This document shows positions 1,172 to 52,621 of a stretch of 64,000 nt of DNA, in pieces. Source of the stretch: Axinella damicornis (taxonomy: Eukaryota; Porifera; Demospongiae; Axinellida; Axinellidae); assembly GCA_963931865.1 (NCBI GenBank), contig OZ007512.1:10859160-10923159 (forward strand), in the 5' to 3' direction. The number at the start of each line of letters is the position of its first letter. Positions within the stretch are counted from its first letter, which is position 1. Under the pieces are notes generated by a model, which worked only from the letters and a program-made list of their open reading frames with translations, did no database searches and was not told the DNA's origin. The translations under genes were made by a program, and so were the position numbers.

Positions 1172-2951
1172 GAGGGGCTGACTGCACTGATGGTTGCGGT
1201 GACCAACTCCAACCTGGAGCTAGTTGGACTCCTCATATCCCACGGTGCTGACGTCAACTGTTCACGGGTACGTTGCAGGGGAAGAGTGGAGAGAGTCAGA
1301 CTAAGTCTTACGTACGTATCTTCACACTACATAAAATGTTTCCGGAACTCAACCGAATGTCGGGCCACAAACGTAGCTCTGCTATATAAACCTAAGCAAC
1401 CTCTGGAAGAGCTAGCCAAACTCCATGGGGGTGTATGTACGTATGTACAAACTCAAGCTTTCTTCACAAGAACTCTTCCACCTCTTTGAAGGTAATCTTC
1501 CAAAGAATCCTTCTGATTCTCTGAAGAATATTCCTTAAAATTTGCAGCAAAGCTGCCCGCAAATTTTCTTTCAGAAGAGCGTCCCGAATGACGGCAGCAT
1601 CGAAAGACATAAACCATACTGTTGCAAGAGGAAACTGCTTCCATAAGGTTCTTTATATGATCAGCTATTTTCAGCCTTCAGCCAAGCTCATCAACTCACT
1701 GTGAAAGAGATTTTAACCTGAGAAGCGATTAGTTGCTTCCTAGTAAAATATCGACGGTAAGTTTTGGTCCACCATGATGCGTTGATGGACCCTGCCCATG
1801 GGGAGTGGCCCCTTTGAATGTTAACCTCATGACATTGATGGAGGTGAAAAGTACGTATTCTCTCCTCATTAGATTTTGTGTCTGTATTGAAAATATTTTC
1901 AGGTAAGCAAGTTTGATCTTGCTGGAAGTGAAATGCCGATGGAAATGACACCGTTGGCTGACGCTTCTGCCCGTGGAAGGCTCGAGATCGTACAAGTACT
2001 GGTTGAGAACAAGGCTGAAGTGAATTCCGTTAGCGAGGTGAGCCTAGCAATGAAGGTACAAATGTACTCTTAGTTTGGTCTGAACTAACGTACGGCATGA
2101 CATCATTTGTGCAATGAGGGTATTCTGAAGCAATTCAGTTCATGCCTCCAGTCCTGTGCTGTAACGTATTTTGTGTCCCACGTCCATTTAAAGTCTCATG
2201 TCTGGAGTCCATATACTGTTTGAAGCGGCCTCCTGTCCAGAAATGCTGGTCCCATGACGACCACTGTTAACACACCATGAGCTGTAGCTATGTATTTCTT
2301 TGCTCTCTGTTTGCAGAGAGCCTTTCCTCCCATTGCGTTTGCTGTTCTCGGAGGACACACCAATGTGGTGGAGTACTTGCTCAAGCAGAATGACTTGGAT
2401 GCAAGCCTGAACGGGGTAAGCAAAATGTTTGTGTAATACGTACGTGCACGTGATGTGTCTACAATAATTATGTGCCCATCTCACCGAAATCCTTGCTGCA
2501 TAGCACTGCTGTGTGATGCATATCTATTGATATTTGGTAGCCATTTCCATAGCAACAGTTTCTTCCTTTCTTGTTATTGCAATGTGTGAAGGCACGAAGA
2601 CCTTATTGGTCAGTATAGGGTGACTATATATGACAGGCCATCAGTAAATCCCCTTCAATTTTTGTGGTGACTGTTTTTGTTTTGTTGAAGCAATGTAATG
2701 TATTCCTCTTCTTTTCCTCTTCAGCTTTCACAGCCCTTTGTGCTCGCCGTCAAATCTCAGAATCGTGAATGTGCTGACTTGCTCGTTGCTAGATACAGAG
2801 GCATTGTAAGTGTCCACAAGGTTGCATGAGAGGCTTGTTGGAACTTTCACTAGGGAATTGGTTTGTGTCTCCACAGGACCGACTGCTTGAAGATGCTACA
2901 CAGAACAGCATGCACGAGCTGGTGGAACACATTCAGCTGTACAGGCAAATG
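1172..2951 (+). CDS. Gene A ankyrin-repeat exons
   Basis: Five phase-0 exons. The exon at 1172-1267 is a clean ankyrin repeat (GLTALMVAV, then LLISHGADVN). 1903-2037 is a repeat with a 12-residue N-terminal extension (TPLADASARGRLEIVQVL). 2317-2415 reads PPIAFAVLGGHTNVVEYLL. 2725-2805 and 2877-2951 are shorter, degenerate helical repeats. The one-repeat-per-exon design is typical of ankyrin genes. Each exon has a counterpart of similar length in gene B (34909, 35073, 35269, 35428 and 35575). More repeats probably lie left of the window. Confidence 0.85.
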
Positions 2952-3217
2952 GTGAGGGATATTTGTTGGTCAGTCATTCCAATCTCATACTCGAAAGTTG
3001 CTGACAAACACTCACTGAGGAAGAGGCATAACTCTCGACGATAATCATAAAACGCCCAAGCTGGGGAGGAGCCTGGGAACGAGGCTATCCATACGTACAT
3101 AGTGAACACACTGTACTATTGTATTGTGCTAATGAGCCGCAGAGCCTGATGATCAATTAAGGCTTGTTGCCATATACCTGGCGGGACATAAACTTTATCT
3201 ATCTACCTATCTGTCTT

Positions 3218-3248
<31 letters not shown>

Positions 3249-9200: not shown

Positions 9201-12200
9201 TAACATAGACCCACTCATACTCAACACCTGTGGTACACGTCTTTAAAATTGTTGCTGAGATTCTGAAGGTTTTTCTGACATGTGTTTGTGGTGCAGCTAA
9301 ATACCAGAAGGCTTCTTCTGAGAATCAGAAGTTTTCTTCTGAAGTTCTGAAGATGCGGAAAGCTTCTTTTGAAGAGCACTGGCTTTGTAGGTACCTACAA
9401 GCTTCCGAAAAACAGTGCAGCGTTGCTTATGGATCTTCCTGAGGTTCTTTTAGGCCCCCTTGTTTTACTGCATTTCTGGAGGTGCATTTGTAATGGACAC
9501 CTGGATCAGCGACAGAAAGGTTTAAGGACGCATACCCTATTTAGATGATATCATTTCGTCCGATTTGTGGGTTTATTTCTCTTAAAAATTATACAGCGTG
9601 CATTAATACACACATTAAGATTGCAACTCATTCATATACTTGTTGCATAAATTATTCCTCACAGCCTCTGGTGTGATGCAACTCATTCATATACATAATC
9701 CTGTACCTCTCACAGCCTCAGGTGTGATGGATGCTCTCTTCAACCAGCACTTCTCAATTGGATCACGTTTTCCCGACCCTAGTGACCTCAGGTCGTCCAG
9801 CCCACCACCGCCCCAGCCAGTCCACCAGCACCAGAGGTCAACACTACCCTTCCCAGAAACTGGAGGTATAATATTATTCGTACGCACGTACATAGTGTAT
9901 GGGCCTTCCTTTGTGGTATATGTCTTTATAGTCCTGTTCCCAGACCGTTAATCCAGCCCAGCGCATGTATTGCTTCCAGTATAATGCGCGGTACTAAAAG
10001 CGATCTGTGCTGGGCCTGGGACTGAGACTAACGTCTCTATAAATGACACTGCACTTTGTAAACCACTTACGCTACTTCACTACATCTGTGCGGAGCAGCA
10101 GCTGAAGCAGACGCAATCGGGGAGCAGCAGCTCTGCACAGAGAGCTGTCCAGTGCCGGATTACTCACATAGGCGAACGAGGGGGAAGTACTTATAGTCTA
10201 AATAGTTGTCTCTTCTCATCTCTAACACAGGCCACAGACTTGGGCGTGGTGTGGACGAAAAGCCAACTGACCCAACCCCACACCCAGTTGTTTCTCAGCA
10301 GGCGCATGGTACCACTGGCTCTCAAACCTCAGGCTCTTCTCCACAAGCACCCATGAGCAACGTGATTGTTCAGGACACGCCTCTTGCTCTACCCACACCA
10401 GTTGATTTAAGCAGTTTAGGTAAGCTCAATAGAATTGGTATACATGATATTTATATTTGAGTGTTGACAATGCTAAAGGTAATCAAGGAAGCATTGATCA
10501 TATAGTAGGCATCTTTAAAATTGATGCCAATGTTCGGAACGCATTTCGACGTGCGCTTGTGGCAGAGCTTCACTGCAAGCTGGAGAGCTTCACTGCAAGC
10601 TGGAAGGCTTCTTCCAAATATGCAGAAGGCTTCTTCAGAAGAGCACTGGCTTTGTATGCACCTAAGTTTCAATAAAAAAAAAGGTGCAGCTTCGCCTGCA
10701 GAGCTGCATTAAGTCTTCCAGACATACATTTGTAATTGAAACCCGGACCAGCAACAGAAAGGTTTCCGATTTTTGGCATCAATTTTGAAGATGCGTACAT
10801 GTACCGTATGTATGTACATGTATGTATGTACGGTGTTGGGTTATTATAATAATTGACATCTGGGGAGGCCATGCACGTGACCATAACTGCATCAGCCCGT
10901 GCCAGCCTCTATTTTTGTCCATCCTGCACACCTGGAGTTTATCGTGCGTTTGCTTCATGATGATGTCATGATATCCACTTCCACCTAAGCTAACATCTTT
11001 GCAATGACATCAAGTTGTGATCCATGCTCACAAGCATGTTATTTTGTGTGCTGTTGCCAGAACACTCTGTTACTGTACGTGACTGTTTCTCCCTAAAGTG
11101 GATTGTACTGGTGACGAACTAAATGACCTGAGTGTCCTCGATGACCAAGAACCAGCACCAACTCACACATCATCCAGTGAGCATACATGCATGCAAACAT
11201 ACACTTGTACAAACATACACTCATACAACATTATGGTACGCGTCTTATAAAAATCATTGCATCCTAATGGTGTTGCTTTTCGTAACTATGTTCACTACTC
11301 ACTTATCCTTTGGTTCTCGATCCTTGCACACTTTAGGTACTAGTCTATCACTGCCATCCATACAACTCCCAGTGACATTGTCAGCACGGGTTGCCCAGGC
11401 AACCGGAGAGTGTGCCCACTCATCCCTCACCACTAAACCACAGCCATCAGATATCAATTCTGTGAAAACAGCAGCCATAGCTAAGCCATCAGTGAGCCCT
11501 ACTCTAGCAACAGGTGGACCCCGTGTATACACCAGGGCTGTTGCCTCAAACGGAAGAGCTGATTTGACAAATCCATCCCACAGTATGCCCACCTCACTAT
11601 CTCAAGAGAGGACTACAACTAGTCCACATCACATTCCTCCTTCCTCGGTGTCTCCCAGGCAGCCACCATCAACACGCCCATCATCGATGCAGCTGCCCTC
11701 CTCTCTTGGGGATGGTGGTCGGCCTCTATCCTCTCCAACTGGCGGTCGTACCACTGCACCCCACAGTCTTCCCAGTTCTCATCCGGCAGCCACTAAGGCA
11801 GCTGCTAGAGGTACAGTGGCTGTATCCCTGGCCAGCGGGATATAAGACCCATTATATCCCGTGGGAAAGGTCAGTGCTTGAGTGGAGCCGAGAAAGTGCC
11901 GAGGGCGAAGCCCGAGGCACTTCCGAGGCGGAACGAAAGCACTGGCCTTTCCCAAGGGATGTAACGGGTCTTACATCCCGCTGGCCAGGGATACAACTAA
12001 CTTATACTATGCTTAGGCTATTCTAAGGTGAGTACACTGTGTAGACATAGATACTGTGGTGTAGGCACTCACCGATCGGTGGCAGAGGCATCTGTGATAC
12101 TCGACTGAGGCGGCGGTAAAGGCACGAGTCCTTGGCTAGACTAACAAAAGCTAGCTCTTCGCCTTCTCGTGCACGCAATCGCTTACAGTATGTGTGCGCA

Positions 12201-13132
12201 GCAGCCGCAGGATATATGACACCCGTTATTGCCCGCAAGTACTGTAACCTGATTGGTTAGAATAGCCTAAGTATAGTATATATTTACCTCACTACGTATG
12301 CTGACTCTCAAAGTATGCCCACTGCCATTCAGATCTAAGGTTTGCTTAGGGAGAAGACAGTCTCTGCTTGCAGCCCCTCAGAGAGCCACTGCTATCACAT
12401 GCAGCCCCTCAGAGAGCCATTGCTATCACATGTAACAAGCTTCTTTTGACAAGCTCCAAGCTGGTGGAAAATATGAATACGTACATTGCATGTACCACAC
12501 TTTGATACTGATCTGTTGAAACAGCGCTTGCCCCGGTTCTATGTACTGGGTATTATCCGTCAAGCACAGTTTGGACAAACTGCTGTAATTGCTAATCCCC
12601 TTAGTGGATATTGCTAACTATCATTTTGTTCTTGATGCATATAGCTGTATTTATATATGGAACAGTAGCATGACTTCTTTGATACCTTTCTTGTACAGAA
12701 ACGCCGCTTCGAGTCTCAAGAAATGCTCAAAAGCTGCCTCCAACTGCCACACTCCCTGCTTCACATCCTGTCCTGGCCCAAACTCCTCCCACTAAACCCA
12801 CTTCCAAAGCAGCCTCCTCCCAGAGGCACGGAAAGGAACCACTGGCTAGACCCCCTCTGTCAATGCCAGGTAAGCTGATAGGTAGGAATGTGAGACTTCC
12901 ATAGTATAAGTGTATTCATAAGTACAAAGTGTAAGTATGTTGTTTACCTGTCAGTCAGTACACAGCACCCATTAGTACTTTCAGTTCCCATTGGTCAGTT
13001 AGCCACCCACACACTTGCACACAAACAACGCAAATTTAAAGTCATTCTCATAACACAGCACACTGCCACACAGTGCCACACACACGCACACACGCACGCA
13101 CACACACACACACGCACGCACACACACACACG

Positions 13133-13168
<36 letters not shown>

Positions 13169-14393
13169 TCACTACACACAAACACACACACACACAAATC
13201 ACTACACACACACACACACACACGTGCACACACATGCTCATATGTATGCACACACACCTCCAGAAACTGGAGTAAGCCCCACAGCAGCCAGACATGCAAC
13301 ACCTGGTGTTTCAACAGTAGAGCCACACACATCCCCAAAACCCGTACGGCCGTCAAGAATTCCAGTTCCAGTGAAACCTGTATCACCGTTACCGTCACGA
13401 AGTACCTCGACGGAAAACCTGACACCAGCAAAATCTGGCGGAAGTGGATCCAAGAAACTACCTCAAACCAGTCCACCTCGCGCTCGAATTGAAAAGAAGC
13501 ATGCCTCAGTCGCAAAGCATGTAGCTGAAGCTCAAGTGAAGGCTCTTCCAGATACTGGTGGGAGGGGACGAACAGTTGGATTTGATAAGACGCCAACCCT
13601 TCCCCTACAGGCGGTTACCTCTAAAGCTACTACCACAGGTCACAAATGGCATCCTAAAGGTAAAACTAATGCCTCTAACAGGCAAAAACATGTCAGCCTG
13701 ACTTCTTCTGAAACCGATTTGGAAGAAAGACTGATGCACTCACCCAATAGTCAGGAGACTTCTGGTATGATCACTGATGTCCATGAAAAGCAAAGGACTA
13801 TTGACACTTTGGAAGGTTTAGAATTCACCCATGAGCAAGTTCCAGAAGCAGAACTTTTCAAGCTAGTTTCTTCCCGTATCAGCAAATGGAAAATTCTCGG
13901 TCGATATTTGGGGCTGGATGATGGCACATTGGATGCCATATACACAGACAATCACTTCTCCATTGAAAGGTGTTACAAGATGTTAGTTGCCTGGAGAACG
14001 AAATTCAGAGCCAAAGCGACGTACCTTGAACTTGCAAAGGGGCTTAAGAATACCATGAGGGAAGATCTGCTGCCCGATCTAGTGCCATACATGGTCCAGA
14101 GTTCTGAAGATGGCGATTCTATTCAAGGCGAAAGAATACAAATTCCGATTGGTGAAAATCCTGACCTTCAGACTGTGAAGGACAAGTTTAGGTTGCAGAA
14201 AACTAGTGGAATGAACAGTGCCCGAATCACATTGCAATATCCTTCTCGACTAAGTTCACACAGTGAAACACTAAATTTTATACTGCCTTCTCTAGACGAG
14301 TCCAGTGTGAAGGTTATAGAGGTTCTGTGCGTTGCTGCTAACATAAGAGAAGATGCTAAAAACGTTCAGTTGTTTGTTCAGTACTTAGAATAA
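1172..14393 (+). CDS. Gene A: ankyrin / Q-rich / helical module / C-terminal Death domain protein (5' partial)
   Basis: Multi-exon gene entering from the left edge. Exons: 1172-1267, 1903-2037, 2317-2415, 2725-2805, 2877-2951, 3394-4092, 4531-4623, 4949-5041, 5577-5660, 6278-6370, 8442-8516, 9021-9051, 9716-9865, 10231-10419, 11099-11176, 11337-11810, 12699-12869, 13264-14393. Every junction has AG/GT and the phases agree. The sum is 3846 nt (1281 codons plus stop). The exons up to 8516 are phase 0 and all later introns are phase 1. Order: ankyrin repeats, Gln/Pro-rich exon, helical module shared with gene B, disordered Pro/Ser/Thr linkers, Death domain. AATAAA at 14392-14397 overlaps the stop codon. 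Expected role: a cytoplasmic scaffold or adaptor binding partners through ankyrin repeats and recruiting other death-fold proteins through its Death domain (inference from family). The start codon lies outside the window. Confidence 0.85.
3394..4092 (+). CDS. Gene A Gln/Pro-rich disordered exon
   Basis: A 233-codon exon starting after tag at 3391-3393 and ending at the donor gtaagt (4093). It opens with about a dozen imperfect QLPQQ units (3450-3640) and continues as a low-complexity Gln/Pro/Ser segment. The matching place in gene B holds only a tiny 11-codon exon (35720-35752), so this is a gene-A-specific repeat expansion. The frame stays open through the donor to a stop at 4461. Intron retention would therefore give a truncated isoform lacking everything downstream. 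Confidence 0.8.
3451..3640 (+). repeat. 15-bp coding tandem repeat (QLPQQ)
   Basis: Units of caacagttaccgcag and near variants, about a dozen in a row and in frame. Unit number is expected to vary between alleles. Confidence 0.9.
4531..9865 (+). CDS. Gene A helical module (unnamed, shared by three genes here)
   Basis: Exons 4531-4623 (Pro-rich lead), 4949-5041, 5577-5660, 6278-6370, 8442-8516, 9021-9051 and 9716-9865. Each main exon encodes 25-31 residues predicted to be mostly helical. Signature pieces are EILHEFAQICISAAVRHRG, QFFMQYFENSA, SPLNFLLSG, FPDQLMMALHQ and the short LPWT exon. The same series occurs in gene B (36241 to 40486) and partly in gene C on the - strand. I do not recognise a named domain. 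It could be a divergent extension of the ankyrin solenoid or a separate fold. The last exon (9716-9865) switches the gene to phase 1 and leads into the disordered linkers. Confidence 0.75.
6371..6640 (+). repeat. Degenerate tandem copies of exon end plus donor
   Basis: Directly after the exon 6278-6370, about four decayed copies of the last 60-odd exon bases plus the first intron bases follow, at roughly 6391, 6439, 6492 and 6568. Most keep the string gtgagtgg at their end, so five donor-like sites lie in a row. Confidence 0.8.
6700..6902 (+). pseudogene. Fragment resembling a transposon-associated HIRAN-like protein
   Basis: An open frame (6621-6902) ends with a segment containing HFAVGLVMGEVVVGHIPREL. 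The pattern 'AVxV..xxxVVGHxPRExS' is common in HIRAN-like segments of transposon-encoded proteins in sponges and cnidarians (family knowledge, from memory). No acceptor joins it to gene A and it lies inside an intron. Most likely a transposon remnant; it could be chance. Confidence 0.3.
7153..7425. repeat. Foldback inverted repeat in a gene A intron
   Basis: Arms at about 7153-7226 and 7345-7421 are diverged reverse complements. They share the agctttcaaatgatgtcc/ggacatcatttgaaagct core and the 'cccagctt.atatctc' segment. A third partial copy follows near 7490-7530. Old non-autonomous element; no coding capacity. Confidence 0.6.
7893..8177 (+). mobile_element. TA-target MITE family, copy 1 (5'-truncated)
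   Basis: The right end reads ctaccaggagtgtggttgcc followed by cctcgaa, as in the copies at 33929-34446 and 55837-56333. The left end is missing and replaced by three tandem copies of a 17-bp unit (gcgtggttaccacacg region, 7893-7943). Lies in the intron before exon 8442-8516. Confidence 0.75.
8534..8637. repeat. Tandem repeat, about 36 bp x 3
   Basis: Three copies of a unit containing atgatgacatcatcatcatt and ccactgctatg, just after the donor at 8516. Confidence 0.85.
9228..9545. mobile_element. Dispersed 'TTTAAAATTGATGC' MITE family, intron copy
   Basis: Begins with a form of gtctttaaaattgatgctga and contains runs of 'ccagaaggcttcttctgag' type units. Related copies, all intronic or intergenic and of varying completeness: about 1480-1650, 10508-10800, 26428-26832, 35995-36165, 37476-37818 and 41247-41460. 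In the fuller copies the two ends are inverted repeats (compare 37484-37510 with 37780-37812). No protein. Confidence 0.65.
9929..10030. mobile_element. Short TAGTC..GACTA terminal-inverted-repeat element
   Basis: About 102 bp starting tagtcctgttcccagacc and ending gggactgagacta. Flanked by an imperfect 9-bp duplication (atgtcttta / acgtctcta, 7 of 9). Its ends match those of the larger MULE-like elements at 38818 and 48818. Confidence 0.6.
10231..12869 (+). CDS. Gene A disordered Pro/Ser/Thr linker exons
   Basis: Exons 10231-10419, 11099-11176, 11337-11810 and 12699-12869. All begin and end in phase 1, so each can be skipped or moved without breaking frame. The composition is rich in Pro, Ser, Thr and Gln with no recognisable domain. 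They join the helical module to the Death domain and probably act as a flexible spacer with phosphorylation or SH3-type motifs (inference). Confidence 0.75.
11819..11995. repeat. Foldback element after exon 11337-11810
   Basis: Arms 'gtatccctggccagcgggat' (from about 11820) and its complement near 11975-11994, with a further inverted section around 'gggaaaggtcagtgctt' / 'aagcactggcctttccc'. It begins only 8-10 bases after the donor at 11811. Confidence 0.8.
12000..12285. mobile_element. MITE with about 21-bp inverted ends
   Basis: Ends actatgcttaggctattcta (about 12005) and tagaatagcctaagtatagt (about 12259) are inverted copies with one mismatch. The interior shows no protein. Sits in a gene A intron beside the foldback element. 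Confidence 0.7.
13073..13258. repeat. (CA)n microsatellite abutting a splice acceptor
   Basis: About 185 bp of CA-rich simple repeat ending three bases before the acceptor cag (13261-13263) of the Death-domain exon. There is almost no pyrimidine tract between them. Frames read across it are artefacts. Confidence 0.95.
13264..14393 (+). CDS. Gene A terminal exon with Death domain
   Basis: Single 1130-nt last exon entered in phase 1. The first about 190 codons are a basic, Ser/Thr/Pro-rich linker. A Death domain follows at roughly 13840-14080. Seen: ELFKLVSSRISKWKILGRYL, then LGLDDGTLDAI, a helix ending KMLVAW, and YLELAKGLKNTM. The pattern W(K)xLGRxLGL..xxldaI..(x)n..mLxxW is diagnostic of Death-fold proteins. 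A roughly 100-residue tail follows with no recognised domain. Stop at 14391-14393, with AATAAA directly overlapping. Likely role: homotypic Death-Death assembly (family knowledge). Gene B carries a kinase in the matching position. Confidence 0.85.
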
Positions 14394-14397
14394 TAAA
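14392..14397 (+). terminator. Poly(A) signal of gene A
   Basis: Canonical AATAAA starting in the stop codon. It implies an extremely short 3' UTR. Confidence 0.6.
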
Positions 14398-14760
14398 TTT
14401 TATGTTGTGCAATGTCCGTAATGCAATTTTATGTTGTGAAATTAACTTCCTTGTATGAATTCCCTGTAATGTTTGTTGTACAGAATAAGGAATGCAGACT
14501 GTGATTGATAGACCTACGTAAGTCACTGCTGTTCCTAGGATCTCTCTACTATAGTAGGTGCTGCTATGGTAACCAGATTTTAAACTCTGCATCAATCATA
14601 GACATTATAACAATAACGCATATAATTTAATGCTCGAATCCATGGACCTTTTTTATTACCCCCTTGTTCCACACTGGGCTCGCTGCAGCCTATAACAGTG
14701 GTTGTAGAGAAGTCCCTATACTGCAAGTACGTATTGCAATGAATTTTAGCGATCATCCTA
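14398..14760. other. Intergenic gap between genes A and B
   Basis: No convincing exon or repeat on either strand. Short open frames are not supported by splice sites or composition. Confidence 0.6.
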
Positions 14761-14764
14761 GCTG

Positions 14765-14793
14765 TGACGTCACGATATTGGCGCATATAAAAG
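14765..14793 (+). promoter_or_regulatory. CRE-like site plus TATA box, candidate gene B promoter
   Basis: A perfect TGACGTCA palindrome (14765-14772) lies 11 bases upstream of catataaaag (14784-14793). The TATA box is about 90 bases before the first ATG of gene B (14882), which leaves room for a start site near 14815-14825. CRE sites bind CREB/ATF bZIP factors in animals. Its place, in the gap between two head-to-tail paralogs, supports a promoter. Initiation itself is not visible in sequence. Confidence 0.5.
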
Positions 14794-14881
14794 TCAACAT
14801 GCATGCATCCAGTTAAACTAGTTCCAAGTGCCTTATCGTAGGCTTGCCCCGTACACGGTATGTTTCAGCGTCAAAGTGAAA

Positions 14882-14972
14882 ATGAGTTTGAAGGGAGGAA
14901 TGGTCGACCTCAGCTTGCTGGACGATCCAAAATGGGATCAGATGCGAATACGGGACGATCTGCTAGACGGCG
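14882..14972 (+). CDS. Candidate first exon of gene B
   Basis: ATG followed by 30 codons (starts MSLKGGMVDLSLLDD) and a strong donor gtgagt at 14973, phase 1. It lies downstream of the CRE/TATA pair and its phase fits the CARD exon at 20782. The 5.8-kb intron that follows is full of repeats, so another first exon cannot be excluded. Confidence 0.45.
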
Positions 14973-15085
14973 GTGAGTGAAGATTTGCGTTCTTTGTTGT
15001 GATATCGCACCGTACTGAATTGTACCTTTCAGCTACTTCTCTGTGTATATAGGTTAATTGTTGCTATTATCAATATGACGCCACC

Positions 15086-15116
<31 letters not shown>

Positions 15117-15320
15117 AATAATAATAATAAATCCACAAGCCGTCACGCAGCAGCGCAGAACGGGAGGGCAGGGCCGGCGGAAGCAATTTGGGTTTGGTAG
15201 GGCAAAATGGGACATGTCCACTGGCGAAGGTAGTGTGCAGAGGCGCGTAGTGCCGATGTGTCTATCGCGCGAAGCGCGAAAAAACTTGTTCACATTAGGC
15301 GACGGAAGCATAAAGTAGAT

Positions 15321-15351
<31 letters not shown>

Positions 15352-18300: not shown

Positions 18301-18636
18301 TGCAGTACAAAGCACGAAGGTGCCATGAGGGACCATCCTGATAGCTAACTGAAAAATGAAGGCAAAAAAACCCAGAAGTTTCCGCGCTTTGCGCGGACCG
18401 ATCAGCCCTACGTGCCTCTATTCACTATATACCTTTGGCAGCAATATTGTTCCTGTAGTGCCCTACCAATTCTACACTTCTGGCTACGCCACTGACATCA
18501 ACAGCAGGCTCTATCCAGACTACAGGCTCTATAGAAGTTGCTATTTACTCGCTGACTATGACTTGTTCACAGCCAGCACCCAGGCACATACTGAGACCAC
18601 GGCATGCACAACCATGGTATCCTCGACTCGAGACAC

Positions 18637-18690
<54 letters not shown>

Positions 18691-39600: not shown

Positions 39601-42600
39601 CTCCGGTAAGACAACTAACTGTTCAATACACATTGCTAGCTCCACTGTGCACTTTTGAGTATTCTTGAGTTGTAATCTTGCACCAGCCATTTACTATTCA
39701 GAATGACTGCAGCATGCTACATCCCATAATGTTCTTATGTAGCAAGTTTACCAGACCCTCCCTCCCTGCGCGGAACTGGAGCGATCCGCGCTGGGGTTAG
39801 TTTGGGTCTGGGGCCGAGACTACTAAGAGTACTGACAAATGATGTGAGTTTTGTCACAACTTTAGGTTCAGTTTCAGATCCATGCTATAGAGGTGTGTGG
39901 CAACACTGTGACCGGTTTCTTGGACAAGCTAGTTTGGGCATTTCATGAGGTATGTATCAATGGCTTCAGCTACACTGTATCCATTTACTCTTGTGTTGTC
40001 TTTCACAGATTCGCGGAGGAGAAACACTTCCTTGGGATGGTAAGTTGAATAGATATGTTCTTGTATAGTATACAGTAAAGTTTTAGTGTCTGGTCAAAGA
40101 GGAGGGTTGACTTACGTACAGGGATTTGCTAAAATATCTACACCCAAAGTACTATCTACTAGTCTGCTGATCACTAGCTTACATAGACTCTGTGGGGATA
40201 GGAGACAAGAGTATTTACTGTGCAATTCAGCTAGCCAAATCAGCTCAACTGGAGTTGCATTAGTCCTGCTGCTATATAGAAGTCAGGATATGTAATGGAC
40301 AGACATTAAATGTGGGTGTACATAGACATGGCCAAATTAGGTTTTAGGGCAACAATATCAGCTGTATACTTACGTATACTGCATTTTGTCCTCTTTCAGT
40401 TCCAAATGTTCTGCAGAGACTGTTCAGTGGTGGATTTCAGCTCAATGTTAGCATTGGTGTCATCGGGTCTGATTTCAAAGTTGACTGTAAGCCATTATGT
40501 GACATTCTTGTGTAGAAATTGAAGATTATTCCAGCATTAATGCCTAGAATGCATACAGTACTGTAAAATGTCAAAAGCTCCATTGCACGATGCCCATAAA
40601 CAGGGGCCAAATCCAAGCTGCAAGAGAGATCCTATGTATAAAACAGAAGCAAGACATGCAGGTCAACAGAACGTACATTGTATGCACTGGAACACTAGAT
40701 TACAACAACATTGATCAATTTGTTGTGCTGACAGTATTACAATGCTCACTGCACTGTCTTCCCTCGACTTTTTTCCTTTGGACCTAGCTATTTCTGAGAT
40801 CGATCTTGCTGCTACGGTTTGTCACATTTTTGTATAAATCGCAATCAATATTATTTTATATCAGTAACTGCATCCTTTGATTTCTGTATGGGGTTTTCAC
40901 ATAATTTACTCATGCACTTTGATTATTCCAACAGCTTGCCCACCACTGACATACAATACATCTCGTTACCCTTCTTCACACAGACCCCAGCAAGGTTTGT
41001 TTGATTTGCCTGTAGCAATTCTAACATCATTACTTGAATGTGTCCATGCCAACAGGAGCAACACCCATGTCACAGCCTTCACACAGTGGAACTCATCCAC
41101 ACTCGTCTGCAGTCAGTTGCTCAACAAAGACAGAACCAAAACATGATGGTTAGTTTTGAGGAAGAGTCTATCAGACCAAGAGCATACAACATTATAATCT
41201 TATGCTGGCCCGAACTGACTCAAAGTTTTGCAGGTATGTAATCTACGGTGCGTGTCTTTAAAACAAAACTGTTACAAATGCATCTCTGGAAGGCCTAAAG
41301 GCAGCTCCGGAAGATCCGTAATCAAAGTGGAGCTGCACCATATTTCAGAAACTTAGGTATGTACAAAGCCAGTCCTCTTTGGAAGAACCCTTCTGCATCT
41401 TCGAAAGAAATCTTCTGGTTCTAGCAAGAAGCCATGCAAGATGGGAAGTTGAAGCTTCTGTCTGTGTGTGATGATGAAAAGAGGTTATGAAAGCCAAACA
41501 TTGTTAGCTGCTAATGGGAAGAGGTTAACTCTGGCATTACATTTTATGGTGAGATGATCAATCACATCATTCTTAAGCCTGTCTACCAACTGGGCCGAAT
41601 CTATAAAGCTGGCGGTGTAAAGGAATGGCTGCCAATATCGAATCTGGTTGCAGGAACGATGAAGATTGCTTGTAAACTTTGTCTCTTTCCCTTCCATAAT
41701 AATCATCTGCACATCAACTGAATTTTATGTTGCTTGAGCCAAACAGAAGATTGTACCTATAAATTCACATGCTGGTACGTAATATATGCTCTTTGTTTGT
41801 GCAACTGCTCTTGTTTTGAAATGAATAGTGCACTAAAGTTACTCATACGGTAATTGACTTCACTCAGTTTGATTTCTGTCCAGAGACCACAGCATTGCTG
41901 AACGGAGTGCCTCTTGGCTCATTCCATTCATCTCCCAGATCAAGAGAAAACAGTTAAGTATAAATTATACTGTCTTTCAAAATAGTTCTAAGTCATTCCT
42001 TGAATTATTTCTTCTGCAGTAGTTCCACAGCAGATGTTACAGGGCACGAAATCCCATTCATCTACTACTGCAGAGGGCTCACATCTTGCTCCACAACAAG
42101 GTAAACCAAGTGCATTCGACTGTGACTGGTATTGTCTGATACTCAATGTGGCTGAGTGTGTATTACTATTTTTGCTTTACAGCCACTTCCACAGCCACAC
42201 CCACAGCCACCTCCGCAGCCACACCCACAGCTACACCCACACCCACAGCCACCTCCACAGCCACACCCACAGTTACACCCACACCCACAACCACCCCCAC
42301 AGAGGCGGATACACATGACCTTCCTTCTGATGTTGAAACGGATGGCCCACTAAATCAGCATCAGACTCGCAGTGAACCACAAGAAGGCAAGCCTAATGGG
42401 ACGGAATCACGCAGACAGACTGAAAGAGGTATTTATATCAATCTATTGATGTGTTCCCCAGGTCTCACAGAAAGTAACAGGAGTAGCTTGGCAGAGAAAT
42501 GGGTGAACTCAGGACCTACAGGTAGTTGCTACAGTCTCTCAGAAAGACATTATTGTCCTGATTCCAGTAACCAGTGATTGTGTTGCTGTTGTAGACATCC

Positions 42601-45380
42601 AGCGAACCAGACCAAGCAGAACACCTATCCCATACTACCACCAAGGGAATGGACATGGATGCCAAATTGATGCGTCAATGGAGTATGTAACAGAAGGGGG
42701 AGTTCTCAATGACCCACGGCATTGTCAAGCTTCCACTGAGAGGTGTGTACATGCATGCACGGATATGAATGACTTTCACGGATAGAATATCAACACCTAC
42801 TTCATGCAGTTACACAGAGACAGCACACCACAGACAGAGGGAGCAGCACAATGTTGATGGTGAAGCTACTGACATGGTTACAAAAGACCCATCTGCACTT
42901 ATAATACGGGTATAAAATTATGTGTAGTGCTTAGGGAAGAATGGTGGGTAGCCCATGCAATGTTTAGACATTCCTTTTTGCTTACTTTCAGACTACAAGC
43001 ACCACTCCAGAAAACTTGGCCTACGAAGCAGCGCCACTAAGACTTCCAAGAAGTTTTCCAGTAGGTATCCACGGTAGCATAACAAAATGACTTTATTTCA
43101 AAATTTGTCTCAGCGGTTTTGCTTAGTATCAACCTCAGTGAAAATGCACTGGTCATGATAATACACTTACGTACAAGGCAGTTAGCTATATATAAACCAT
43201 GCCCACTGGTACGACAATGCACTCAACTGTACACAGGCGTTTTCAGGATATGCGTGAGTCAGGAGGTGCCTCCCACAGAGGCTGTAAAGTAGATGAGAAT
43301 TTATTGTTTTCTGCCATCATCTCATGATTCATGGCTCTCGTGACAACTTTGTGCTTTGCACTATACTGTCACCATCTGCTTTCTGCTTCCGTGCCCCTTA
43401 GTTAGATCATAACACTACCTACTTGCTTGCTGTGTCATTGACAGCTTGTAGTCTGCTCCGGACTCTCTTGATTGTGATCTTGTTGCCTTCTTGGCCGGCC
43501 GGCCCCGCTTTCTCGAGCAGCTTGTCATCATTGATCTCTCTGTTCAGGACTCTCTTGTTGCCTGTTTAACGGTCCCATTTCTCAGGCAGAGCTTGCACTC
43601 TGCATTCAAAACCTTCCAGTTGCCTTCCTAATAGTCTGGCTGGCTTGCTTGAGCAGCTTGTGGGCACTGGGCCATCTTATGTCCTACATGCAGAGGACAT
43701 CATGGTGATGTGCCTGTTAGACTGCTTCAGCTATTGCCAGACTGGTAACACTCAACTCAACCAGTGATGGCACAGGTCTAAGTGTAATTTTAGTGTATGT
43801 GTCTGATTGTCATATTACAATTTCTGTCGCCTCAGTCATGTGCATGCAAATACTCCATGTTCTGCATTGCACTCACGCTCGCCCAACAATATGATGCATT
43901 CTCCTAGTGATACATGATTTGCTGGTTTTAAAGTACTCAAGTGTAGCTCTTTAGGGCCTAAGTTTATTCTCAAGGTGTTTTTCAGTCTTGACAACACTTA
44001 AATTCATTCCCTGGCGTTGCTTGGCTCAAAACTGCTTCCACAGGTAATTTAAGGTAGCATTATACCTTTACCGTTAGGGTACCTTTAACCGTCGGGGCCC
44101 CGACGGTTAAAGGTACCCTAACGGTAAAGGTATAATGCTACCTTAAGCCATCCTAAGCAGATGCGTGACTAATCACACCCACAAATTTCCCCTGTCCTAC
44201 CCCTCCTGCTCACACAGAACCTAAGTCCCAAGGACATTACTGGGTGTGACATCACGAAGCTGAAAGTTTCATCAGTGGTGGAGTTTTTTTTTTGGGGGGG
44301 GGGGGGGGGGGGCTAGTAAAAGTAACTTGCGTCTATGGATTTGTTCCGATCATCAATTTTAGTCTCCAGCGCTAGACAAGTCACCTTGAACTTCAAACTC
44401 AGGTCAGATGTGTGTCATGAATGCATTCACAGGACCGGTAGTGGGTGTAGCAACACAAAACTTTTTGGGCACACTTCGCGCGCTAGTGGCTGAACCCCCC
44501 TTTCTAAATTTCTAAATCTGCCACTGTTCATAATGCACTATGGGCCCTAAAGGACTTTAAGGCCTAGCTTCACCGTGAATGGATACAGATGTGGTCAAAG
44601 CAGACCCATCTATACTCGCGAAAGAGCCCTGGGGTATAATAAAACTAGTACAGGGAGGAATGGTAGCCCATGCAATGTTCAGAAGATAAACACTCTCTTT
44701 GCACAGGAGAATCTAGCTATAGCTAGATATGGGACTGAACGGTCATTGTCAAAGTTGCCCCATGCATGATCGACCGTCCACATGCTATTTGAGTCCCTTG
44801 TCCCACTCCCCTCTGGTGAAAATACAGCATAATGTAGTTTCACCTAGCCTCTCATTCATGCTGAGATTAAGATTACAACAATCACAAGTATTCACAGAGC
44901 CTCAATGTATGGTAATGGGACTAATAATTTGGTACTGCATGTTTAGGGCTTTCATTACTTGCAGGTACCTCCTATGACAGTCACAGATTCCAGATCTGGA
45001 TCTTCGCCTTCAACCATTTCTCCAACTTCTGCTCAGCAAAGCATTTCAACACAACAAGGTGCACAGCTACGTATGGTACACATGCATTGTACATGTAGTT
45101 ACTAGTTTCATTCCTAGGCTTCTAAGAGTGACACAAAAATATTGTGCATGTGCTTGAGGTTGAAATGGCTCATGATGTCTTTAGGTCACACTGGTGGTAG
45201 GAAGTTAGGTGGAAAACGTAGGGAAACAGCAGAAATCAGGAGTATGAAACCGTTGAATCCCACTCCAGATGATTCTCAGACAGGTATATGTATGTGTTGA
45301 CTCAGTTGAGAGATAGCAACTTCGAGCTATACATCATATTAAGCATGCATGTGTGTGTGTGTGTGTGTGTGTGCATGTGT

Positions 45381-45411
<31 letters not shown>

Positions 45412-51400: not shown

Positions 51401-52621
51401 AGGCATTAATGCTAATTGATTAATATGTAAGGAATGGAAAGAAGTATGCGCTTATTAGCTGCATGTATGTGCTTATTAACCAGTCTCTACGGTATGGGAA
51501 AAGGTGTGGGTAAATTGGTTTTGGACTGTACCCCCAACTAATTTTCTCACATGACAAGCCTAGTTACTGTATTGCATGTATAAGTTCATTATACTACATC
51601 TTAAAAGGTAATGTTTTGTTCTTATATATCTGTAGATGATAATGATCCGAAATCATTCATCCTTAGAAAGCTCAAAGAAACTGGCACTGAGTTGGGTGTC
51701 GGGGCATTTGGATGTGTGGTTGAAGTGGAAGTTGAAGGCAAATTATTTGCAGCAAAACAATTTCACCCTACAATAAAGGGTGAGAAATTTTGCCAGAAAT
51801 GGACGCGAGAAAGTGTGCTTTTACAACACCTAAATCACCCGAACATTGTCCGTATTCGTGGGATTCACTTTCCCAAGGATGCACTGCCATCACTCGTAAT
51901 GGAACTTCTAGCCACGAGCCTTCATTGCCATCTTCTTAATGAACAAAACTCCAACCTACCCACGTGTGTCAAGACTACAGTTCTTTGTGATATAGCTAAA
52001 GGCTTGGCTTACCTCCATGGTCAGAAGCCAGTTGTAATTCATCGTGACCTAACAGCCAAGAACATTCTGCTTAACTCTGAAGGTGTCGCAAAGATCGCAG
52101 ATTTTGGGAATTCTCAAATCGTTGACATCAATCCAGACTCAGGGCGTGAAACCACCATGACTGGCTACCCTGGTACTAGGGTCTATATGGCTCCCGAAGC
52201 ACTTTGTACAAATGGTCGCTATAATGCCAGCCTAGACGTGTTCTCATTTGGTCATCTGGCTCTCTTTGTTGCAATACAAATCTTTCCTTTAGAGTTAGAA
52301 ACACCTACTTATTTAGACCATCAAAGAGATCTGCGGGCGCGCACTGAAATACAGAGGCGTGGAAAGTACGTTGACATCATGCACTCCAGTATTGGACAAG
52401 ACCATCATGGCCTTGTTCCTTTGATTAAACGCTGCCTAGACAATGAACCCAATGAGCGGCCATCTGCTAGTAGATTAGTATCTGAGTTGGAACAGATGCT
52501 GGGTGAAATGGGGGGACGCTCTAGAAGCACTATCAGCACAGACAACATCAACGATCAATCGCATGGAAAGCCACGACTTTACATGAAAATGGGGAGTTCA
52601 TCTTCACCTGACATTAATTGA
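14882..52621 (+). CDS. Gene B: CARD - Death - Death - ankyrin - helical module - kinase protein
   Basis: 43 candidate exons, all AG/GT with matching phases, 5580 nt (1859 codons plus stop): 14882-14972, 20782-21084, 25749-25988, 26893-27162, 28119-28341, 28903-28945, 29010-29050, 29791-29836, 30124-30171, 30231-30269, 30337-30435, 30498-30596, 30994-31104, 31428-31529, 31725-31823, 32154-32252, 34909-35004, 35073-35201, 35269-35367, 35428-35508, 35575-35649, 35720-35752, 36241-36363, 37380-37463, 38693-38776, 39866-39949, 40009-40039, 40400-40486, 40935-40994, 41056-41148, 41884-41952, 42020-42100, 42183-42428, 42462-42521, 42595-42742, 42810-42909, 42992-43060, 44965-45058, 45185-45283, 46347-46478, 46550-46669, 50256-50519, 51636-52621. 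The part from 25749 on is well supported. The first two exons are joined less surely: the donor at 21085 is weak and the CARD exon also has its own stop. Likely a signalling kinase recruited through death-fold contacts (inference). Confidence 0.7.
15078..15105. repeat. Homopolymer C run followed by A run
   Basis: About 27 C then about 12 A. Similar runs: G at 15321-15348, C at 18217-18242, G at 23752-23776, G at 44296-44312 and C at 57240-57259. Length may be unreliable in the assembly. Confidence 0.9.
15166..15420. mobile_element. hAT-like element remnant with GCGAAGCGC palindromes
   Basis: Starts with cagggccggcggaagc, a terminus type common in animal hAT-like MITEs (from memory). It contains three 'gcgaagcgc' palindromes (about 15265, 15360 and 15408). 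A possible opposite end, cccggcttccgtcgcc, is at about 16706-16721. Confidence 0.4.
15620..15815. repeat. Minisatellite, about 33-34-bp unit x 5-6
   Basis: Units of 'gtgcatggagcagttgcatg' plus 'tggtgaaat' or 'tgctgaat'. Reverse-strand frames with repeated CNCSMHIQHMQ patterns come from this repeat. Confidence 0.9.
17029..17605. repeat. Inverted repeat pair, about 95-bp arms
   Basis: 17029-17125 and 17510-17605 are reverse complements with a few differences. They share 'cagcaaaacttgaagtgtct' and 'gaccacttttgagggaacat'. Intronic element in gene B; open frames in the arms (LKCLDTYRRAVAA) are shared by both copies and match nothing I recognise. Confidence 0.75.
17845..19130. mobile_element. About 1.3-kb element with inverted ends containing (GAAAC)n
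   Basis: The ends 'gtcaggcaggttatgatccg' plus a gaaacgaaacgaaac run (17865-17920) and the inverse near 19065-19125 form diverged inverted repeats. The interior includes a poly-C run and a (CA)n block (about 18637-18790). No transposase seen. Confidence 0.5.
18637..18790. repeat. (CA)n microsatellite
   Basis: CA dinucleotide repeat with minor interruptions in the first long intron of gene B. Confidence 0.95.
19664..20447 (+). repeat. Long dispersed repeat, copy 1
   Basis: Nearly identical to 37853-38667, which carries an extra about 35-bp insertion. Both copies hold an ATG-led frame beginning atggcttgggg (about 19979 here), which runs 17 codons plus two bases into a perfect gtgagt donor. Each copy lies upstream of a gene B exon. 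Its nature is unknown; it could be a transposon body carrying its own first exon. Confidence 0.8.
20782..21113 (+). CDS. CARD-domain exon of gene B
   Basis: Entered in phase 1 from acceptor gcag. Encodes VKNLPEDLHMAVLPQLLSDL onward. The arrangement is CARD-like: a first helix pair (LPQLLSDL, FLPFIHQRL), an acidic/Trp segment, then EKALKLYSMLLGKGKNVVYH followed by LFLALL and a final LANTLKKK helix. This matches the CARD signature 'eKa..Ll.lL..kG...f..F..aL....LA..L'. The frame reaches a stop at 21113, which would make a small CARD-only protein of about 140 residues. A weaker donor (t|gtgaga, 21085) right after the domain is in phase 1 and fits the Death exon at 25749. CARD domains assemble by CARD-CARD contacts (family knowledge). 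Both outcomes may occur. Confidence 0.6.
21861..22115. mobile_element. MITE with about 50-bp inverted ends (CCTGGGAAC..GGCTA family)
   Basis: The ends tagcctcattcccaggccta and taggcctgggaacaaggcta, and the flanking 'tctttggtttgcgttgac' / 'gtcaacgcaaaccgaaga', are inverted copies. The terminus 'cctgggaacgaggctag' recurs across the window (about 3070, 5500, 20618, 34848, 37137), so many solo ends or decayed copies exist. Confidence 0.8.
22156..25394. mobile_element. Large composite element with about 650-bp inverted arms
   Basis: Left arm 22156-22810. The right arm is its reverse complement, at 23968-24092 plus 24863-25394, split by a later insertion (24096-24850). The shared outer end is ccagtcgttaggccagcggt. 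The 1.16-kb centre (22811-23967) shows no recognisable gene. It lies in the intron between the CARD exon and the first Death exon of gene B. It could be a foldback transposon or two copies of one element in opposite orientation. Confidence 0.75.
24096..24850. mobile_element. Nested pogo/mariner-like MITE pair inserted at TA
   Basis: The ends cagtccccaattatggcc and ggccataattggggactg are inverted and are bordered by TA on both sides (24094-24095, 24851-24852). A second junction, ggtggccataatagggga / tcccctattatggccacc, sits at 24631-24669, so two related elements appear joined. CAGT..ACTG ends with a TA target fit the Tc1/mariner/pogo group (family knowledge). No transposase frame. Confidence 0.75.
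25749..25988 (+). CDS. Gene B first Death-like exon
   Basis: An 80-residue exon, phase 1 at both ends. Seen: YEQAEQLVECLSLENCGVNL, then SSADASEICFEWLSKRSPG and TWYEVVEALVTVQGLGYLVSHLL. The 'W..r.p..TWxxLxxALxxvgL..La' ending is the usual Death-domain helix 5-6 pattern. Symmetric phases make it a movable exon. Role: homotypic assembly (family knowledge). Confidence 0.7.
26893..27162 (+). CDS. Gene B second Death-domain exon
   Basis: A 90-residue exon, phase 1 at both ends. Seen: DEDWIKLAEYMGYDQEVISH, then QQQKFLRLWRM and RTPSILEKIKK. The 'dW..LAeyMGY...vIshI' start and 'Q..fLrLW' are typical Death-domain features. If the donor is ignored the frame stops at 27179. Confidence 0.75.
27413..28035. 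mobile_element. Dispersed repeat interrupted by a MITE
   Basis: Outer repeat (about 27413-27596 plus 27967-28035) matches 30712-30950 and, in part and inverted, 43985-44045. Shared strings: 'ccctccatttccagtgttca' and 'gattg.aagttcgtt'. It was split by a MITE at 27597-27966 whose 20-bp ends tatttctgcgaatagatgcc and ggcatctattcgcagaaata are perfect inverted copies with TA at both outer edges. Confidence 0.8.
28119..30269 (+). CDS. Gene B linker exons between Death and ankyrin parts
   Basis: Exons 28119-28341, 28903-28945, 29010-29050, 29791-29836, 30124-30171 and 30231-30269. The first encodes 73 residues plus (LQKVPAWNLEDP, AIQEKLDQEGQCFADDAILH), partly helical and of no known family. The others are tiny (13-16 codons), acidic and Ser/Pro-rich. 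Phases run 1, 2, 0, 2, 0, 0 and agree throughout, which supports exons this small. If the donor at 28342 is not used, translation runs into a MITE and stops at 28402. Confidence 0.65.
28366..28838 (-). mobile_element. TA-target MITE family, copy 2
   Basis: A 473-bp inverted copy of the family seen at 33929 and 55837. Bordered by TA (28364-28365, 28839-28840). Starts ttcgaggggctaccgcactc and ends ccctaccaggagtg. It lies 24 bases after a gene B donor. Confidence 0.85.
29220..29605. repeat. Dispersed repeat with (AGCAGCTGAAGCGGACGCAA)-type minisatellite
   Basis: Related segments at about 10092-10200 and 45432-45790 (shared 'gtgac.gaagtgggac' start and 'gcacagagagctgtcc'). The interior holds about five 30-36-bp units with 'gcggacgcaatcggggagca'. 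Intronic, no product. Confidence 0.65.
30337..32252 (+). CDS. Gene B ankyrin exons, first block
   Basis: Six phase-0 exons: 30337-30435, 30498-30596, 30994-31104, 31428-31529, 31725-31823 and 32154-32252, mostly 33-34 codons, one repeat each. Clear signatures: GKTPFLYACTKGNMNIVKLL, HTPLVKACLIGDA..LLGYGADPN, RPLIIATGGGHARMVELLL, TTPLIQAITCNYVQIAGTIL. 30994-31104 is degenerate. Ankyrin repeats form protein-binding solenoids; the partner cannot be read from sequence. Confidence 0.9.
32290..33810 (+). mobile_element. Dispersed intronic element (about 1.5 kb) with a perfect hairpin
   Basis: Contains inverted arms 32607-32723 and 32769-32885 and a (GAA)n run near 33552-33590. Sections recur at 46765-47395 (same strand) and about 50760-51345 (reverse). 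Shared strings include 'gtgtgaaaaccgtcgtgaga'-type and 'cacgtgcattacgggg'-type segments. No intact protein; possibly a decayed non-autonomous element. Confidence 0.65.
32607..32885. repeat. 117-bp perfect inverted repeat, 45-bp spacer
   Basis: Arms 32607-32723 and 32769-32885 are exact reverse complements as far as I can trace. In a gene B intron transcript they would form a long double-stranded stem. Confidence 0.9.
33850..34446 (+). mobile_element. TA-target MITE family, copy 3, with triplicated left end
   Basis: The full element is 33929-34446 (cactcctggtagggg .. gcccctcgaa). Its 40-bp left end, including 'aaattgtgccgcgtaatgt', is present three times in tandem, starting at 33850, 33888 and 33929. 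Intron between ankyrin exons of gene B. Confidence 0.85.
34487..34862. mobile_element. MITE, CCTGGGAAC..GGCTAG family
   Basis: Inverted ends ctagccacgttcccagcc and gggcctgggaacgaggctag. The flanks gtaacttg and gttacttg look like an imperfect 8-bp target duplication, which would fit hAT-type insertion. No protein. Confidence 0.6.
34909..35752 (+). CDS. Gene B ankyrin exons, second block
   Basis: Phase-0 exons 34909-35004, 35073-35201, 35269-35367, 35428-35508, 35575-35649 and the 11-codon 35720-35752. Signatures: TTALAAAVS..MVEQLVQRGAHIN, ETPLAAACARGFKRIAEFLI then GANVNY, PPIGFAII..MHIVRFLV. The first five match the five ankyrin exons of gene A one for one (lengths 96/96, 129/135, 99/99, 81/81, 75/75). 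That is strong evidence for duplication of the whole block. Confidence 0.9.
36241..40486 (+). CDS. Gene B helical module
   Basis: Exons 36241-36363, 37380-37463, 38693-38776, 39866-39949, 40009-40039 and 40400-40486. They correspond to gene A exons 4949, 5577, 6278, 8442, 9021 and 9716. Lengths 84/84, 84/93, 84/75 and 31/31 nt are close to identical and phases are the same. Signatures: EEILQTFCQICLHAVTV, VKRFFEEYPNLM, NPSPATFLIRNGLLDM, FLDKLVWAFHE, the LPWD mini-exon and LQRLFSGGFQLN. No named domain recognised. Residue identity with gene A is low while exon architecture is conserved. Confidence 0.75.
37476..37818. mobile_element. Dispersed 'TTTAAAATTGATGC' MITE family, fuller copy
   Basis: Inverted ends: gtctttaaaattgatgctga at 37486 and 'tctcagcatcaactttaaga' near 37792. 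The interior has repeated ccggaaggcttcttc units. Starts about 20 bases after the donor of exon 37380-37463. Confidence 0.7.
37853..38667 (+). repeat. Long dispersed repeat, copy 2
   Basis: Near-identical partner of 19664-20447. It ends only 25 bases before the acceptor-AG of exon 38693-38776, so the branch point and pyrimidine tract of that exon lie at or within the repeat border. Confidence 0.8.
38818..39822 (+). mobile_element. MULE-like transposon with about 90-bp inverted ends and 9-bp target duplication
   Basis: Ends tagtcccggccccagaccc and gggtctggggccgagacta. The terminal ~90 bp on each side are diverged inverted copies. Flanked by the exact 9-bp direct repeat CTAAGAGTA (38809-38817, 39823-39831). 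Long inverted ends with a 9-bp duplication are the hallmark of Mutator-like elements (family knowledge). Located in the gene B intron between 38776 and 39866. It carries a helicase gene fragment rather than a transposase. Confidence 0.8.
39095..39525 (+). pseudogene. RecQ-type helicase fragment inside the MULE-like element
   Basis: Read in more than one frame: SEQLEVVRELVKGQ resembles the RecQ start 'L+..Q.e.i...l.G+D'. DGMSLCCSGCLPP sits where the Walker A 'TGxGKSLCYxxLP' would be, with the Lys region degraded. VFVDEAHCIEKWR (about 39463-39502) is a clear Walker B DEAH motif, reached after a frame change. Broken and not functional as read. It may be captured host sequence or part of an original transposon-encoded helicase. 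Confidence 0.6.
40935..46669 (+). CDS. Gene B disordered linker exons
   Basis: Exons 40935-40994, 41056-41148, 41884-41952, 42020-42100, 42183-42428, 42462-42521, 42595-42742, 42810-42909, 42992-43060, 44965-45058, 45185-45283, 46347-46478 and 46550-46669. Most are phase 1 at both ends and can be skipped in frame. 42595-42742 / 42810-42909 / 42992-43060 / 44965-45058 pass through phases 2, 0, 0 and 1. Composition is Ser/Thr/Pro/Gln and basic. 42183-42428 encodes a Thr/Pro/Ala repeat (TATPTATSAATPTA). For 46347 I chose the acceptor taacag; an alternative acceptor 8 bases earlier gives a stop. No domain recognised. Confidence 0.65.
44049..44146. repeat. 98-bp perfect palindrome, no spacer
   Basis: Centred between 44097 and 44098 (ggggcccc). 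Both arms are exact complements outward to ttaaggtagc / gctaccttaa. Intronic in gene B. Confidence 0.95.
45348..45432. repeat. (GT)n microsatellite
   Basis: GT dinucleotide repeat with a few GC and CAT interruptions. The frame reading Cys/Val repeats over it is not a gene. Confidence 0.95.
46292..46333. repeat. 42-bp perfect palindrome next to an acceptor
   Basis: Centre cacgtg (46310-46315). It ends 13 bases before the acceptor AG used for exon 46347-46478, where it could fold and hide the branch point or acceptor. Confidence 0.9.
48236..48516. repeat. 128-bp perfect inverted repeat, 25-bp spacer
   Basis: Arms 48236-48363 and 48389-48516 are exact reverse complements by direct reading. A decayed relative is at about 63330-63465. 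Lies in the 3.6-kb gene B intron 46670-50255. Confidence 0.9.
48818..49199. mobile_element. MULE-like MITE with about 73-bp near-perfect inverted ends
   Basis: Starts tagtctcggaaccagaccct and ends agggtctggttccgagacta. The flank cagctacaa on the left is matched by cagctagctacaa on the right, consistent with a 9-bp target duplication later altered by a GCTA duplication. Same terminal sequence type as 38818-39822. No gene. Confidence 0.75.
49765..50025. repeat. (GAA)n run and dispersed repeat
   Basis: An aagaagaag run (about 49768-49806), then a segment ending 'agagaacgctatcgcgttct'. This is related to 63465-63590, which ends 'agagaatgctaccgcatcct'. Intronic, non-coding. Confidence 0.6.
50256..50519 (+). 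CDS. Gene B Pro/Ser-rich exon before the kinase
   Basis: An 88-residue exon, phase 1 at both ends, acceptor tgcag and donor gtacat. Sequence such as LAPPRLPKSAPRVPD contains PxxP-type stretches that could bind SH3 domains (inference). Followed by a 1.1-kb intron containing a reversed copy of the 32290 repeat family. Confidence 0.75.
51636..52621 (+). CDS. Gene B terminal exon: tyrosine-kinase-like protein kinase
   Basis: Single last exon, phase 1 entry, 327 codons plus stop. All catalytic landmarks are intact. Gly loop GVGAFG (51695), ATP Lys in FAAK (51755), helix-C Glu in TRES (51809), catalytic loop HRDLTAKN (52040), DFG (52100), APE in YMAPEAL (52190), DVFSFG, and the late Arg in CLDNEPNERPSA. 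HRDLTAKN resembles tyrosine kinases, while the overall layout fits TKL/RIPK-type kinases; I cannot decide substrate specificity. It should transfer phosphate from ATP to protein. The tail after the domain is Ser-rich, about 45 residues. Gene A has a Death domain in this position. Confidence 0.95.

Follow-up and report, generated by a model that had tools for sequence, protein, structure and literature searches.

Ankyrin-repeat paralogs of the sponge Axinella damicornis pair a conserved core with a putative terminal exon for either a Death domain or a kinase

Analysis of a 64,000-nucleotide stretch of the Axinella damicornis genome (C8:10859160-10923159), hereafter the window, revealed two related genes, A and B. 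Unless stated otherwise, features are given in window coordinates and lie on the forward strand. The core of gene A consists of 11 exons spanning 1172..9865 (1172-1267, 1903-2037, 2317-2415, 2725-2805, 2877-2951, 4949-5041, 5577-5660, 6278-6370, 8442-8516, 9021-9051, and 9716-9865). The core of gene B likewise consists of 11 exons, spanning 34909..40486 (34909-35004, 35073-35201, 35269-35367, 35428-35508, 35575-35649, 36241-36363, 37380-37463, 38693-38776, 39866-39949, 40009-40039, and 40400-40486). AG acceptors and GT donors were found at the borders of all 11 exons of A and all 11 exons of B. Exons 1 to 10 start in phase 0, and the 31-nt exon 10 shifts exon 11 to phase 1 in A and B alike. 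The original prediction was that these exons match in order, length, and phase. Order and phase were confirmed, but the lengths (A/B: 96/96, 135/129, 99/99, 81/81, 75/75, 93/123, 84/84, 93/84, 75/84, 31/31, and 150/87) are equal in just six of the 11 pairs, the other five differing by multiples of 3. Lack of significant similarity between the matched exons, an outcome that would count against this pairing, was assessed with 1000 shuffles: eight of the 11 pairs (exons 1 to 6, 8, and 9) gave p<=0.005, but exons 7, 10, and 11 did not reach significance (p=0.056, 0.057, and 0.085, respectively). An all-by-all comparison of the exons revealed diagonal peaks in rows 1 to 6, 8, and 9, and no clear diagonal peak in rows 7, 10, and 11.

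The homology did not stop at the core boundaries that had been proposed. Upstream ankyrin exons a3, a4, and a5 of gene A paired with b2, b3, and b5 of gene B (z of 11.9, 7.4, and 14.8, respectively); b1 and b4 had no clear partner in A, and a6 resembled b1, b2, and b6 about equally. This result indicates that the shared part is longer than first stated, and in gene A it starts to the left of the window. The upstream ankyrin exons of gene B are in phase 0 (30337-30435, 30498-30596, 30994-31104, 31428-31529, 31725-31823, and 32154-32252). They are preceded by putative 5' exons at 28647-28693 (with an ATG), 28903-28945, and 29010-29078, the last two of which recur in the paralog B'. These 5' exons come from ab initio gene predictions, which served as a guide only.

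The shared core exceeded the Pfam cut-off for Ank_2 (27.3 bits) in both genes, with 71.7 bits in A and 46.5 bits in B. The ankyrin signal was confined to about the first third of the core, and the remainder matched no Pfam family above its cut-off. A protein search with the B core returned 92 matches at E<=0.01. Coverage was 97% for two of them, P0003 and P0025, both rich in ankyrin repeats; P0003 additionally carries an NTPase domain. Comparison of A residues 110 to 345 with 5.8 billion proteins, by a search that reaches relatives sharing five-residue words, gave 987 candidates, none of them at E<=1. The 3' end of core exon 8 (PSPLNFLLSGCHVTR) is repeated in the following intron, with partial copies at 6394-6634 of the window and four occurrences at 4965-5210 of contig C96. 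Tandem Repeats Finder (TRF) reported a 77-bp repeat at 6493-6640, in the same intron. An Rfam scan of the window gave no match.

Searches of the 226-Mb genome with the core (best 134 of 191 and best 136 of 1032 candidates scored) yielded strong matches to the A and B cores on contig C96 and at about 10.69-11.035 Mb of C8; in other parts of the genome the matches were weaker and resemble general ankyrin matches. On one chromosome (C8), the family is clustered in tandem between about 10.685 and 11.095 Mb, and contig C96 holds further members. The A-B pair of the window recurs as D and B' at 11.00-11.04 Mb and as C96A and B'' on C96. Matching blocks between D and A extend over 14 kb to just beyond the Death exon, with shorter blocks further on, and the cores of A and D are 96% identical at the amino acid level (dN/dS, 0.22). 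Further members are E, F, and G, the last located at 11.085-11.095 Mb of C8. An unrooted tree of core exons 1 to 10 grouped B with B'' (support, 92) and both with B' (100), adjoining the pair of E and F (100); A, D, and C96A fell on the opposite side, with G between. E and F entered this tree without exons 1 and 7, G without exons 6, 8, and 10, and C96A without exons 1 to 3. The G core is more similar to A (40% identity) than to B (29%).

Death domains were found behind A, D, C96A, G, and B', whereas a kinase lies downstream in B, E, and F. For B'', contig C96 ends before the position of the kinase. The segmental copies of A, namely, D and C96A, carry the same Death exon as A. With a homologous core, conserved phases, and terminal exons that differ downstream, these genes make up one paralogous family. 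As modelled, the family proteins probably consist of N-terminal ankyrin repeats, the conserved core, low-complexity linkers, and one terminal effector exon, for a Death domain in some members and for a TKL-like kinase in others.

Pieces of an inverted copy lie on the reverse strand at 61118-62288. They comprise an exon 6-like piece (62214-62288), possibly an exon 7-like piece (61471-61539), and an exon 9-like piece (61118-61192), whereas the front exons of this copy are situated beyond the downstream end of the window. Among the inverted A-like copies downstream (61118-62288 and L010/L011), one seems to hold exon 6-like and exon 9-like pieces twice, and within the window it gave neither a Death nor a kinase match.

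The terminal exon of gene A (13318..14393) encodes a Death domain at about 13875-14072, which was confirmed, as had been proposed, by a Pfam search (PF00531, 39.4 bits; cut-off, 22.6). Its top-scoring acceptor, 13318 (score, 4.2), is in phase 1, the exact site being uncertain. The dN/dS of this exon is 0.35 to 0.38 among A, D, and C96. Between the core and the Death exon, gene A contains candidate phase-1 linker exons at 10231-10419, 11337-11810, and 12699-12869 (span, 10231..12869), which are open and have AG/GT sites conserved in D and C96. For 11337-11810, the ratio of synonymous to replacement changes (12:7 against D and 11:9 against C96) counts for coding. The coding score of the same exon (-22.1) and the synonymous-to-replacement ratios of 12699-12869 (1:2 and 0:6) count against the A linkers. 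In the genome as a whole, at least 150 Death-domain matches exceeded the cut-off (best 150 of 980 candidates scored), and several of them sit in open frames of about 1000 codons. These matches suggest a very large death-fold repertoire in this genome.

The closest contrast in the family is that between B and B'. Their cores are 93% identical at the amino acid level (dN, 0.033; dS, 0.130; dN/dS, 0.25). Behind the core, gene B contains candidate phase-1 linker exons at 41056-41148, 42020-42100, and 42183-42428 (span, 41056..42428) that also stay open and in frame in B' and B''. They were chosen from a large number of candidates according to splice score and length, which makes each individual exon provisional. 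Few synonymous changes were found in 42020-42100 (none, with seven replacements, against B''; two, with six replacements, against B'), and an excess of replacement over synonymous changes in several linker candidates counts against the explanation preferred below. A 12-bp minisatellite at 42179-42302 lies inside a candidate linker exon; the exon bearing it is 39 bases shorter in B' and 117 bases shorter in B'', both multiples of 3.

In B', the linker candidates are followed by a Death domain (PF00531, 26.1 bits; cut-off, 22.6) whose best acceptor is in phase 1. In B, a truncated start of the same exon is present at 42595..42785. It retains the counterpart of the B' acceptor, again in phase 1, and its frame ends with a stop at 42785. 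At the nucleotide level, B and B' remain similar for about the first 50 bases of the Death exon (to 42644 in B), and the translated match extends to 42680. No Death domain was found in B between 42.8 and 51.6 kb, and neither a kinase nor a kinase remnant was found in the 40 kb examined at B', including 25 kb after the B' Death domain. This comparison indicates that part of the change in B is the loss of a Death domain. The A Death exon carries near its start an RPSRIP-like stretch similar to the B-group exon, and this short motif suggests that a Death exon, rather than a mere linker, may have been the older state in the B group.

B'' shares the truncated Death-exon start with B, ending likewise at a stop without a Death domain. 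An assembly error or dead copies could in principle produce such a difference between B and B' in a region that is repetitive and holds partial copies. This explanation is very improbable, since B'' lies on a separate contig and nevertheless shares with B both the truncated exon and matching blocks over the 3 kb beyond it, and since the core dN/dS among B, B', and B'' is 0.22 to 0.25. A part of the B' linker region is duplicated together with the Death end about 11 kb downstream (L041 2926-6405; C8:11044925-11048404), and no second B core was matched between the two Death copies. The dN/dS between these two copies is 0.68, which indicates weak constraint and counts against the preferred explanation.

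The kinase exon behind B (51636..52621) is separated by 9 kb from the truncated Death exon and its stop. It matched PF00069 with 141.3 bits (cut-off, 31.7), which places it among the PF00069/PF07714 kinases, and it contains the glycine loop and the AAK, HRD, DFG, and APE motifs. Its best match in the Protein Data Bank is TNNI3K, and we take it to be a TKL-like kinase. The glycine loop is preceded by two possible acceptors, one in phase 1 at 51636 with a score of 3.0 and one in phase 2 at 51667 with a score of 3.6; because the phase-2 site scores higher, the phase of the B kinase is unsettled. The presence of this exon behind B is compatible with the original claim that B ends in a kinase, but we infer its splicing to B. 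The claim that linkers and effectors are in phase 1 throughout agrees with the linker candidates and with the best acceptors of the Death exons in A and B' and of the kinase exon in E. It is ambiguous for the kinases of B, where phase 1 is one of two candidates, and of F, where acceptors of similar score are in phases 1 and 0.

Ahead of the B kinase, an ATG in the same frame (51611) would permit a separate gene. Gene B may then be a shortened gene ending in the truncated Death exon, with the kinase at 51.6 kb unconnected to it, and the change in the window would be Death loss only. Together with that ATG, the stop at 42785, the 9-kb gap, the unsettled acceptor phase, and the lack of a recognized linker in between fit this reading; a search with the E and F linkers ahead of the B kinase gave no useful match. 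However, E and F keep core, linker candidates, and kinase in this order on one strand, and although the frames of F and B contain an ATG, no ATG precedes the glycine loop in the E kinase frame, for which a phase-1 acceptor (5.6) scores clearly best. Moreover, no Pfam family reached its cut-off in the gap among the ORFs scanned (10 of 36 of at least 58 amino acids), the best being DUF4335 with 20.7 of 27 bits. A separate kinase gene is unlikely, and judged from the sequence, gene B quite likely uses the downstream kinase.

The cores of E and F are 45 to 47% identical to that of B, and their kinase ends indicate that kinase ends are older than B. The dN/dS between the E and F kinases is 0.46. 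In a kinase tree, B, E, F, and P0107 grouped together with a support of 0.75 inside a clade of 45 members (0.98) in which ankyrin-kinase proteins are frequent; E and F joined P0107 with a support of just 0.058, and TNNI3K was absent from this tree. The B kinase is about 41 to 42% identical to those of E and F and 44 to 49% identical to some other proteins, among them P0107 (49%). The latter values would fit two independent captures, one in B and one in E/F, from a more extensive family of kinases of this type. We regard this as doubtful, because the kinase identity (42%) is close to the core identity, as expected under joint inheritance, and because of the grouping of B, E, F, and P0107. Several named relatives of the kinase come from the sponges Dysidea avara, Halichondria panicea, Ephydatia muelleri, and Sycon ciliatum, and others from plants, oomycetes, and further groups. 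Kinases of the B type are also joined to ankyrin repeats plus a weak Death-like tail (P0145), to an AIG1-type GTPase (P0158), and to Kelch-type families (P0153, precomputed).

The tree ((B,B''),B'),(E,F), with a kinase in the related pair E/F and a truncated Death start in B and B'' that is homologous to the intact B' exon, also accommodates an ancestor of B, B', and B'' in which a Death exon and, downstream of it, a kinase exon served as alternative last exons; on this reading, B later lost Death and B' the kinase. No gene with both exons intact was found, the 25 kb after the B' Death domain held no kinase remnant, and E and F held no convincing Death remnant. Such a dual-exon ancestor is conceivable but on balance improbable. 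Its further implication, that one ancestral gene with one core gave two outputs by splicing and that its duplicates divided these by reciprocal exon loss, leaving B with the kinase and a Death remnant and B' with Death, is more tentative still.

At the level of gene sequence, these results demonstrate one core paired with two kinds of predicted terminal effector, also between B and B'. The original prediction described an exchange of effectors between A and B. Two effector types behind one core were indeed found, and B and B' add a case, but A and B are old paralogs rather than products of a recent exchange; a recent direct swap between them is excluded by cores that are only 34% identical. 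In B the exchange is in part the loss of Death, as the truncated start indicates, and kinase ends predate this gene. The explanation that we prefer, with a probability of roughly 60%, is a family with a shared ankyrin front and an exchangeable terminal exon, in which the ends change by exon gain or loss after duplication. According to this model, the ankyrin repeats and core would bind or sense the same class of partner, and the output would depend on the terminal exon, with a Death domain recruiting death-fold partners and a TKL-like kinase phosphorylating. Ends would be gained or lost as terminal exons after duplication; with linkers and effector exons in phase 1 throughout, the matching intron phase would spare the reading frame. 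In B, where the Death exon is truncated and no intact effector other than the kinase was found farther downstream, transcripts would splice to the kinase exon.

In TNNI3K, a C-terminal kinase of the TKL type follows ankyrin repeats, and B as modelled has the same arrangement. B differs from TNNI3K in its intervening core, a region that gave no match in the protein search with A residues 110 to 345, and in having a paralog, B', with a 93% identical core that ends in Death. In the single-ORF ankyrin-kinase proteins P0126, P0128, P0145, and P0146, which belong to the 45-member clade, the ankyrin repeats are N-terminal to the kinase in all four scanned. These proteins differ from B in that the kinase follows closely behind the ankyrin repeats, and the likeness was judged on ankyrin repeats and kinase alone. 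The tail of P0145 gave a sub-threshold Death match (17.4 bits; cut-off, 22.6), and that of P0146 gave no family match. ANKDD1A, ankyrins, and NFKB1 are ankyrin-Death proteins. As commonly described, they join both domains in a single protein, the arrangement modelled for A, D, and B', and we know of no kinase-ended sibling among them.

In lophotrochozoan RIG-I-like receptors, sibling paralogs whose other exons are highly similar are distinguished by a signalling domain, of the death-fold or another kind, and exon-intron mechanisms have been proposed for this domain grafting (PMC8998645). These receptors vary the N-terminal domain, whereas the sponge family varies the C-terminal exon, between Death and an enzyme, on another core. 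Polymorphic toxins and NLR-type effector shuffling similarly join a constant part to a variable end domain, but mechanism and setting differ. The ankyrin-kinase and ankyrin-Death layouts, as well as the grafting of signalling domains between sibling paralogs (PMC8998645), are already known. Among the papers listed by searches of open-licence PMC, no title or abstract opening pointed to this core or to a Death/kinase alternation. The suggestion that no such family has been described therefore holds at most for this exact layout, since 26 of 120 kinase relatives among the matches listed have ankyrin domains and domain grafting has been published (PMC8998645).

In B and B' (core dS, about 0.13), cores with few differences stand before different signalling ends, and the remnant of the lost end is still visible. 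With this remnant, the contrast between B and B' makes effector exchange in animal death-fold genes directly testable, instead of being deduced from distant domain shuffles. The two genes also lend themselves to a paired comparison of whether the choice of partner is determined by the front half alone.
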